DNA of 9,505 nt from an uncultured Candidatus Saccharimonas sp. GTDB lineage: Bacteria; Patescibacteriota; Saccharimonadia; Saccharimonadales; SZUA-47. The stretch is taken from positions 1 through 9,505 of the forward strand of contig CALRCT010000011.1 of assembly GCA_943354655.1 (NCBI GenBank). Reading direction: 5' to 3'. A program made the position numbers and the translations under genes. The notes below the pieces were generated by a model. It saw only the letters and a list, made by a program, of their open reading frames with translations. It ran no database searches and was not told the origin of the DNA. Positions within the stretch are counted from its first letter, which is position 1. Each line of letters begins with the position of its first letter. Positions 326 to 1,603 of the stretch are shown here, piece after piece.

Positions 326-1603
326 CTAATCCTTTACTAATACTACAAGTTCACGTCCAACAATCTGGTTTTCTCTGTGATAAATCAGATCATCTTTAGA
401 CACATGAACAAACTTGACTCTATTATAGCCCAACTCCTGTAAATGGTCAAGGACTGGCAAGTGCAAAAAGCCACTTTTGGTATACCATGCAGGTACGGCC
501 AAACAAATACGTGTACCTTTTTTAACTTGTTTTTGTAAATTAAACAAAAATTTACGATGCAAACTGTCGACGTAACGTATATTTTTTTGTAATTGTTCTT
601 GGGGTGGAAGGCTAGCATAGGCCTGACCTAAGTATGTTTCGCTAGCTAATAAATCTATGGGCTGTTGCCATTTATGTTCTGTTGCATCACCTAGTTCTAT
701 TCGGACAGTTTCTCCGGCAACATCAAATTTTTCTCTTATCCAGTGCATGTTTCCAATACTATATTCAACCATTCTTGGTTCTAAGTCAGTGCCATAAGCG
801 TCAAATCCCATAAGTGATGCTTCTTGCAATAAAACACCTGTACCACAAAACGGATCTAGCAAGACAAGGTTCTGAGTTCTGGGTTCTAAGTTCTGGGTAG
901 CTTCTGTTGGTAGCGTTGTCGGCTGTTGCCTAGAACCTAGAACCGACAACCTAGAACTATGATCATTAATCTTGCTAACAGCAAGATTAATGATCGTTTG
1001 AGCTAATTTTGGCGGCAACATACCAACTCGCGCGTCGCGGTAGGGCCGTGCTTGATCGCGCGCTGCGTATCCTTCAATGTCCTGAATAAATACAGTTTGT
1101 GCAAGAAAAGCCGTAGCACCGTTGCTTATAATTACTAACTCCCAGCCGTTCGAACTTGTAAGGTTATTGTGTATAACTTGTGCCGCATTTAATTCCGCAG
1201 TTTTATTTGGAACAATTCGCACCGATCTGCCCAAGGCTTTAACGGCTTTTTTTGCTCCCAACAAACAACGTTCAATGTCTTTTGTATCTACTTTAATGCC
1301 AATTACGCTTACGCCAATAGTTAATTTGCCCTCTGGGACATATTTTTCGTGATCTGGGATAGTTTTAGCCAAAAAATCTCTGGCTGCAGACCATGACGCC
1401 GCAGGAAGCTCGGCAAGCACCTTACATAACCTAGTACTACCCCCAAGGCGAGCAAAATTTACTTTGCTGGATTCTATATTTAAAAACGTTGCTTCTGTAC
1501 CGTAGGGTTTAACGTTTTCGGCACCATAAAGGCTCTCTAATTCGGCGATTCCCATAGATGGTTGTCGACCAAGCGTAAGTATTGTTGGAAATGATTCTTT
1601 CAT
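326..1603 (-). CDS. THUMP/TRM11-like class I SAM-dependent RNA methyltransferase carrying an in-frame repeat insert
   Basis: This 425-aa protein is probably a tRNA or rRNA nucleobase methyltransferase of the TRM11/TrmG10 type. Residues about 45-175 fit a THUMP-like RNA-binding region, followed by the family segment RVGMLPPKLAQTIINLA (192-208). SAM motif I is DPFCGTG (250-256) and an acidic SAM-contact segment is GTDLEP (271-276). Two things are odd. The catalytic motif IV, normally DPPY(G) in N-methylating members, reads ASETYLG (320-326), so target chemistry is uncertain. Second, homologues I recall have only a short linker between the LPPKLAQ segment and motif I, whereas here about 33 residues (211-244) are encoded by palindromic heptad repeats and look inserted. 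The gene remains open, so the protein may tolerate the insert as a surface loop. The start at 1603 has no ribosome binding site and sits 7 nt behind a minus-strand TATTAT box, suggesting a leaderless message. Family assignment is good; substrate is unknown. Confidence 0.85.
   Translation of the reverse strand: MKESFPTILTLGRQPSMGIAELESLYGAENVKPYGTEATFLNIESSKVNFARLGGSTRLCKVLAELPAASWSAARDFLAKTIPDHEKYVPEGKLTIGVSVIGIKVDTKDIERCLLGAKKAVKALGRSVRIVPNKTAELNAAQVIHNNLTSSNGWELVIISNGATAFLAQTVFIQDIEGYAARDQARPYRDARVGMLPPKLAQTIINLAVSKINDHSSRLSVLGSRQQPTTLPTEATQNLEPRTQNLVLLDPFCGTGVLLQEASLMGFDAYGTDLEPRMVEYSIGNMHWIREKFDVAGETVRIELGDATEHKWQQPIDLLASETYLGQAYASLPPQEQLQKNIRYVDSLHRKFLFNLQKQVKKGTRICLAVPAWYTKSGFLHLPVLDHLQELGYNRVKFVHVSKDDLIYHRENQIVGRELVVLVKD
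869..957. repeat. Inverted heptad-repeat element inside the TRM11-like gene
   Basis: The left block 869-896 is four tandem 7-mers of form GTTCTRR (GTTCTGA, GTTCTGG, GTTCTAA, GTTCTGG). The right block 929-956 is the opposite orientation, CCTAGAA, CCTAGAA, CCGACAA, CCTAGAA. Arms 869-896 and 930-957 match as an imperfect inverted repeat (22 of 28 by eye) around a 33-nt centre. An extra perfect 8-bp pairing joins 915-922 (GTTGTCGG) with 943-950. The block is 89 nt long, is translated as part of the methyltransferase, and gives a 7-residue peptide period (TQNLEPR-TQNL). It resembles a repetitive palindromic element rather than native coding sequence. Confidence 0.85.
961..995. repeat. Perfect 16-bp inverted repeat, 3-nt loop, inside coding sequence
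   Basis: The arm 961-976 (GATCATTAATCTTGCT) is exactly complementary to 980-995, with AAC (977-979) as loop. It directly abuts the heptad-repeat element and encodes residues about 203-215 of the TRM11-like protein. The arm at 980-995 encodes the family-like TIINLA segment; the other arm looks like an inverted copy of it. Confidence 0.93.

Follow-up and report, generated by a model that had tools for sequence, protein, structure and literature searches.

A heptad-armed palindrome in a TRM11-like methyltransferase gene of Candidatus Saccharimonas as a likely ORF-less relative of IVS/IVP elements

Our analysis showed that the 9,505-nucleotide stretch of DNA examined here (the window), from an uncultured Candidatus Saccharimonas sp., carries two oppositely oriented arrays of the heptad GTTCTRR within a TRM11-like methyltransferase gene. 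The palindrome that they form is likely to be a stripped-down mobile element, because similar heptad arrays flank IVP genes in many bacteria. More precisely, it is probably a miniature, non-autonomous copy of the IVS/IVP type, predicted to be mobilised in trans by the IVP of a full-length cassette with the same heptad. The period-7 signal in the flanks of IVP genes, taken together with a series of filled and empty plasmids, makes an ORF-less member of the IVS/IVP family the best reading of the feature. The original prediction described the palindrome and missed this link to IVP/S23 genes.

The host ORF (326-1603, minus strand, 425 aa) matches methyltransferase domains, with a TIGR01177 match below the cut-off; among the homologs listed for it, several bear the name tRNA G10 N-methylase Trm11. 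It is open right through the element, which occupies approximately residues 216-245, between LPPKLAQ and the LLDPF motif, and the inverted GTTCTRR arrays do lie where they were originally placed, after LPPKLAQ. Arm A (869-897, plus strand) has four GTTCTRR units, with exact dimers at 869, 876 and 883; arm B (929-957, minus strand), complementary to arm A, was found by inverted-repeat and period-7 detection, the period-7 arrays themselves spanning 869-895 and 929-957. The arms are 29 nt each, 79% complementary and separated by a 31-nt spacer (898-928, plus strand) without an ORF, the first part of which, GTAGCTTCTG, is found again in a second copy of the palindrome, in a GT4 glycosyltransferase gene. 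The fold of positions 855-970 beats 200 of 200 dinucleotide shuffles on both strands (z -3.4 and -4.1), and Rfam gave zero matches in the whole window.

The codons of the arms suggest that the window element is translated along with its host gene. In the phase in which TRR forms a codon, three of the four forms of GTTCTRR contain a stop. In the 5' arms of the three coding two-armed copies of this genome, TAA or TAG is present in all eight out-of-phase heptads and in none of the four in-phase ones, where the codons are TCG, TCG, TTA and TCA (odds of the pattern 1 in 495, calculated by hand). The arm B unit GTTGTCG (minus strand) deviates at precisely the position at which the consensus heptad would introduce a stop in frame. 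The 3' arms are less informative, having CAG or AAG as in-phase codons and TAG in only one out-of-phase unit. The earlier idea that each array reads as the same 7-residue peptide in all frames needs correcting, since a pure array of GTTCTAA or GTTCTAG would have a stop in each frame; the window array reads through because its in-phase heptads differ. GTTCTCG is not unique to coding copies, since the intergenic copy of the same genome also has one.

The expectation that the heptad would recur elsewhere in the genome was borne out. In the partial genome searched (507 kb, 66% complete), the exact dimer GTTCTRRGTTCTRR has 17 matches at five places, against 0 for the reversed control; with two mismatches allowed there were 77 matches against 38 in the control and no additional clear clusters, so only the exact-dimer places are meaningful. 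Four of the places hold two-armed copies of 64-89 nt (boundaries set by us) without an ORF: the window copy (869-957), one in mutM/fpg (contig C33) and the one in the GT4 gene (contig C56), all three in frame within their genes, and an intergenic copy in the rseP/uppS interval (C10:8656-8719). The GT4 copy has ACTTT at either end; the longest word shared by the ends of the window copy is 4 nt, with no 5-bp duplication. The fifth place (C10:9410-9437) is a single array located 14 nt after a PF05635 gene (23S_rRNA_IVP; TIGR02436, four helix bundle protein), and the UppS ORF takes part of its N-terminus from this array. The window copy therefore has period-7 GTTCTRR arms in common with an IVP cassette of its own genome, which is best read as the full-length member of the GTTCTRR family; the cassette has an IVP ORF, the window copy only its 31-nt spacer. 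The contig end cuts the C10 IVP gene, leaving the array visible on its 3' side and the 5' arm unseen. Among 112 IVP flank sets, the C10 array is the best match (rank 1) for three of the four palindromes of this genome, and for similarity to the window copy it ranks only 18 of 112. The genome has three IVP genes with three heptads, GTTCTRR (C10), ATCTCCC (C56) and AGTTTAT (C38, by eye), and the C56 protein matches the solved structure 2gsc. A TTCTAGG-type heptad common to CPR genomes, as originally suggested, was not supported: 17 of 98 relatives contain the exact dimer, in one to three copies each (21 matches in all, against 8 for the reversed control). We rejected a single CPR-wide heptad, as the period of 7 is common and the heptad itself differs from place to place.

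Evidence for insertion comes mainly from mutM and GT4, for which 29 loci each were aligned, out of 39 and 38 relatives with a match, respectively. The GT4 insert is missing from all 29 relatives, and 26 of the 29 aligned for mutM have a short loop, so that both genes offer clean empty sites; together with the three in-frame two-armed copies, this agrees with the original view of a palindromic element that tolerates in-frame insertion. In the remaining three mutM genes (G020, G002 and G030), this loop is likewise occupied by period-7 inserts, each gene having its own (by eye). The G030 unit, AGAAGAT, is the unit of that genome's own IVP cassette, and the insert places its own IVP locus first of 112, tied with two other loci; the G020 insert places its own locus at rank 13 of 112. 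Among the best 120 of 4994 GT4 homologs, the same insert is present only in one 98%-identical homolog, and a few others have long linkers of different sequence. The GT4 linkers of two homologs, P0127 and P0155, contain LPAGRQG peptides, which we regard as the product of a different CPR palindromic repeat.

In the window gene itself, the linker measures 13-73 residues in 29 relatives and 13-78 residues in the best 120 of 6753 homologs. The short linker attributed to relatives was seen in 17 of the 29 (13-19 residues), but not across the range as a whole; the linker is naturally variable, length alone is therefore no proof of insertion, and the case is weaker here than for mutM and GT4. The same linker in G006 contains two arrays that are not mutually complementary (lag-7 identity 0.63), and lag-7 identity is 0.50 in G033. 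The original prediction was to be refuted by close homologues in many genera sharing a linker of the same length with no repeat character, or by a heptad found nowhere else in the genome. This applies in part: G009 does have a 37-residue linker without repeats (lag-7 identity 0.27), but G006 and others carry other heptads there and the GTTCTRR heptad recurs in the genome. The sharpest result for the window gene comes from a 96%-identical strain protein, known from its amino acid sequence only, in which exactly seven residues (RLSVLGS) are missing, as many as three heptads encode.

Period-7 arrays are not peculiar to the C10 cassette. PF05635 matches were found in 37 of 99 genomes, this one included, and flanks were analysed at 120 IVP loci in three sets: 30 loci, one per genome; 80 loci, the best of 581 that were confirmed on scanning named genomes (Bacteroidota, Firmicutes, Proteobacteria, Fibrobacter, CPR and others); and 10 loci, every one of them cyanobacterial, out of 27 plasmid records that contain IVP. 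Lag-7 autocorrelation in the flanks was 0.359 and 0.380 in the 30-locus set versus 0.240 and 0.253 farther out, 0.367 and 0.368 versus 0.262 and 0.258 in the 80-locus set, and 0.445 and 0.437 versus 0.229 and 0.293 in the plasmid set. In the 30-locus set, autocorrelation peaked at 7, 14 and 21, and the pooled lag-7 value of 0.370 compares with a maximum of 0.284 in 500 shuffles. Counted by side, strong period-7 arrays occurred in 27/60, 69/160 and 15/20 cases (30-, 80- and 10-locus sets), against 1/229, 13/589 and 3/80 far windows. Counted by locus, 20/30, 48/80 and 9/10 had one, and the search for a strong array found none at 10/30, 32/80 and 1/10 IVP loci. Periods 5, 6 and 9 appeared beside IVP genes zero to two times per set; period-8 arms were seen in an IVP subgroup (L124, L140, L141, L150, L165), on 19/160 sides versus 3/589 far windows. 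Arms were complementary above the 99th percentile of mismatched pairs at 11/30, 45/80 and 3/10 loci, and significant direct likeness of the arms, instead or additionally, was found at 1, 12 and 1 loci (14/120); from these counts over the 120 loci, inverted arms are common and not universal. The heptad sequence differs from IVP locus to IVP locus, and the period of 7 is the common feature.

Some of these cassettes lie in recurrent surroundings. The 3' array of an IVP cassette codes for the N-terminus of the next ORF at L018:8730-9455 (UppS), L020:899-2101 (GT4) and L133:3376-4701 (epimerase). The same kind of GT4 gene lies downstream of IVP cassettes with differing heptads in several families (L087, L090, L091, L093, L099, L101 and others), the alternatives being repeated insertion at one site or heptad replacement in both arms. 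In cyanobacterial plasmids, CRISPR-Cas operons contain IVP genes (L248, L249, L251), in the cas10/cmr3 and cas6/cas4 intervals.

Filled and empty sites for an IVP cassette are found on plasmids. Plasmid C of Trichormus variabilis has an IVP cassette, with IVP as the sole gene seen in it, upstream of a TrbI/VirB10 gene, and the cassette is missing from six plasmid records (H32-H37, three of them read) that are 97-98% identical around the site. Filled minus empty amounts to 428 nt, made up of a 423-bp element and a second copy of GTAAT; this 5-bp duplication suggests staggered cutting of DNA. At the site itself, the empty plasmids are entirely free of heptads, so the heptad arms and the IVP gene are missing together. 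Scytonema NIES-4073 has the same cassette, shorter by 14 nt (two heptads). In Nostoc C052 this place is occupied by a decayed cassette that retains heptads and IVP-like remnants, and in Brasilonema UFV-E1 by an ORF-less heptad palindrome flanked on both sides by TAATTAA (both by eye). ORF-less palindromes thus occupy the same kind of site as IVP cassettes. For the cas cassette of Anabaena sp. 90, the search for an empty site yielded no clean one, and the nrd site of Nostoc edaphicum was inspected by eye only.

Palindromes of this type are also present elsewhere. Across 545,520 bases of 110 IVP loci there are 20 inverted repeats with period-7 arms, compared with 0, 1, 2, 0, 2 and 0 for arm periods of 5, 6, 8, 9, 10 and 11. 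Of the 20, six overlap an IVP flank or the IVP ORF, and a further one is the GT4 copy described above; 15 were compared with IVP loci, five being left out (L087, the GT4 copy, which had a separate test, and L114, L120, L130 and L166, which overlap IVP flanks or ORF). Three of the 15 examined are in frame in convincing or likely ORFs: a Saprospiraceae MAG has one in a UDP-GlcNAc 2-epimerase gene, where residues 274-323 are unmatched relative to 4hwg, and an Acetothermia MAG has one in a CCG-domain gene and one in a second ORF. A fourth, at L136, lies within a 128-codon open frame. With two palindromes (L154) discounted as lying inside the compared flank, the heptad of the nearby IVP locus ranked 1-2 of 112 for 5/13 palindromes and did not for 8/13.

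Short perfect hairpins sit directly outside heptad arrays in the window (961-995; 16 bp, 3-nt loop) and at L087, L091, L093, L131 and L162. For the window and L091, conserved coding sequence of the host makes up one arm (in the window, the codons of TIINLA) and an inverted copy of it the second, a pattern that fold-back synthesis at the junction might leave. A general rule of inverted host copies beside the arms was dropped, the enrichment being only mild: perfect stems of at least 8 bp occur in 13/218 windows near IVP versus 29/1157 far, and terminators may contribute.

Other explanations of the palindrome have to account for the same observations. The heptad palindromes might be independent units, moved or made by something else and merely used by IVP genes for landing. 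The ORF-less palindrome at the Brasilonema plasmid site, the variation of heptads among loci, and the 18 of 38 IVP loci (counted by group, and a loose fit) where one side alone is strongly periodic all lean that way; against this, the empty Trichormus plasmids are without heptads, with arms and gene missing together, and we regard this explanation as unlikely. Slightly less probable still is a palindrome akin to the RPEs, unrelated to IVP and spread through the lineage by unspecified means. In-frame insertion into unrelated genes, as reported for RPEs in Rickettsia in the part of the literature consulted (PMC10969869), is what it would lead one to expect, but an IVP gene abuts one of the five heptad places and period-7 arms are general at IVP loci.

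Two further readings appear very improbable. One is a tandem repeat that grew in place, through slippage and template switching within a permissive linker and without any insertion; it would fit the variable linker, the strain differing by seven residues and the perfect hairpin of host sequence alongside, but not the same heptad at five unlinked places (control 0) or the clean empty sites in mutM and GT4. The other, equally remote, is a functional RNA hairpin of the host gene, such as an RNase III or regulatory site, for which the stable fold of 855-970 and the cutting of the Coxiella IVS stem by RNase III (PMC4990558, in its account of the IVS) could be cited; the structure is, however, missing from relatives or built from a different heptad there, and the window is without an Rfam match.

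The reading as an ORF-less IVS/IVP-type copy can be set beside known systems. The 23S rRNA IVS of Coxiella burnetii, in the IVS account of PMC4990558, has heptameric repeats upstream of its S23p ORF and 28-bp terminal inverted repeats, the number of heptads differing between strains; it resembles our elements in these repeats of about 28 bp, in heptads beside the ORF and in the PF05635 protein that the cassettes also encode. The window copy shares its long-stem inverted ends, but lies inside a methyltransferase ORF rather than an rRNA gene, has no ORF and is apparently translated through. The same account gives excision through RNase III, treats IVS mobility as an older idea and considers S23p not to be made in vivo, which counts against a role of IVP in mobility (PMC4990558). 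Insertions in CPR 16S and 23S rRNA genes contain IVP ORFs (PMC11270868, in the portion consulted). The analogy to RPEs, short palindromes in frame within unrelated Rickettsia genes (PMC10969869, in part), is a fair one for behaviour, as originally proposed; unlike RPEs, the arms here are 7-base arrays, and they are shared with a family of partner genes. Like MITEs, the four two-armed copies have inverted-repeat ends and no ORF and occur several times per genome, but the end-sharing partner codes for IVP and no known transposase, and no duplication was seen at the window copy. Some 23S rRNA IVSs lack an IVP ORF. The STRR of cyanobacteria are tandem heptanucleotide repeats, and these 7-base units occur in a lineage whose plasmid IVP genes have heptad arms. 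Finally, IVP proteins match the Avd model of diversity-generating retroelements weakly, below the cut-off, but no RVT_1 was found in this partial genome and 9 of the 37 genomes with IVP matches have one.

Mobility of the elements through IVP is our inference. IVP would bind the heptad arms when these are folded into hairpins, either of DNA or of RNA, and would direct insertion; insertions would survive where they are in frame and in loops; loss of the ORF would give palindromes; and arrays might later grow or shrink through slippage, within genes in steps of three heptads. Neither RVT_1 nor PF01797 (RAYT-type transposase) was found in the 507-kb partial genome. RVT_1 matches occur in 17 of 99 genomes, and were not found in the four genomes richest in IVP (G087, 10; G009, 6; G042, 6; G081, 5); we rejected mobilisation by reverse transcriptase, no RVT_1 having been found in this partial genome or in the most IVP-rich ones. 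In three of the nine genomes with both, a weak PF05635 match directly adjoins a reverse transcriptase (G074:C2, G058:C40, G059:C5) and may be Avd of diversity-generating retroelements. No IVP was found in phage records.

To our knowledge, IVSs and their four-helix IVP protein have had no agreed role to date. Among the open-licence PMC papers listed, we recognised no description of heptad arms as a general trait of IVP genes or of heptad palindromes in CPR genes, and found IVS heptads in print for Coxiella only. It is possible, at somewhat less than even confidence, that IVP and heptad arms make up a widespread transposase-free class of mobile elements, with IVP as the mobility protein and ends recognised through their 7-base period rather than their sequence; its members would be rRNA IVSs, ORF-less palindromes within genes and, perhaps, the heptanucleotide repeats of cyanobacteria. 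If heptad arms do mark one mobile family, all of these could be tested as a single system in which protein and ends are defined and a series of empty and filled plasmids can be seen. The system, if real, would also give genes a way of acquiring peptide insertions in frame, with a coding effect that can be predicted because 3 and 7 are coprime.
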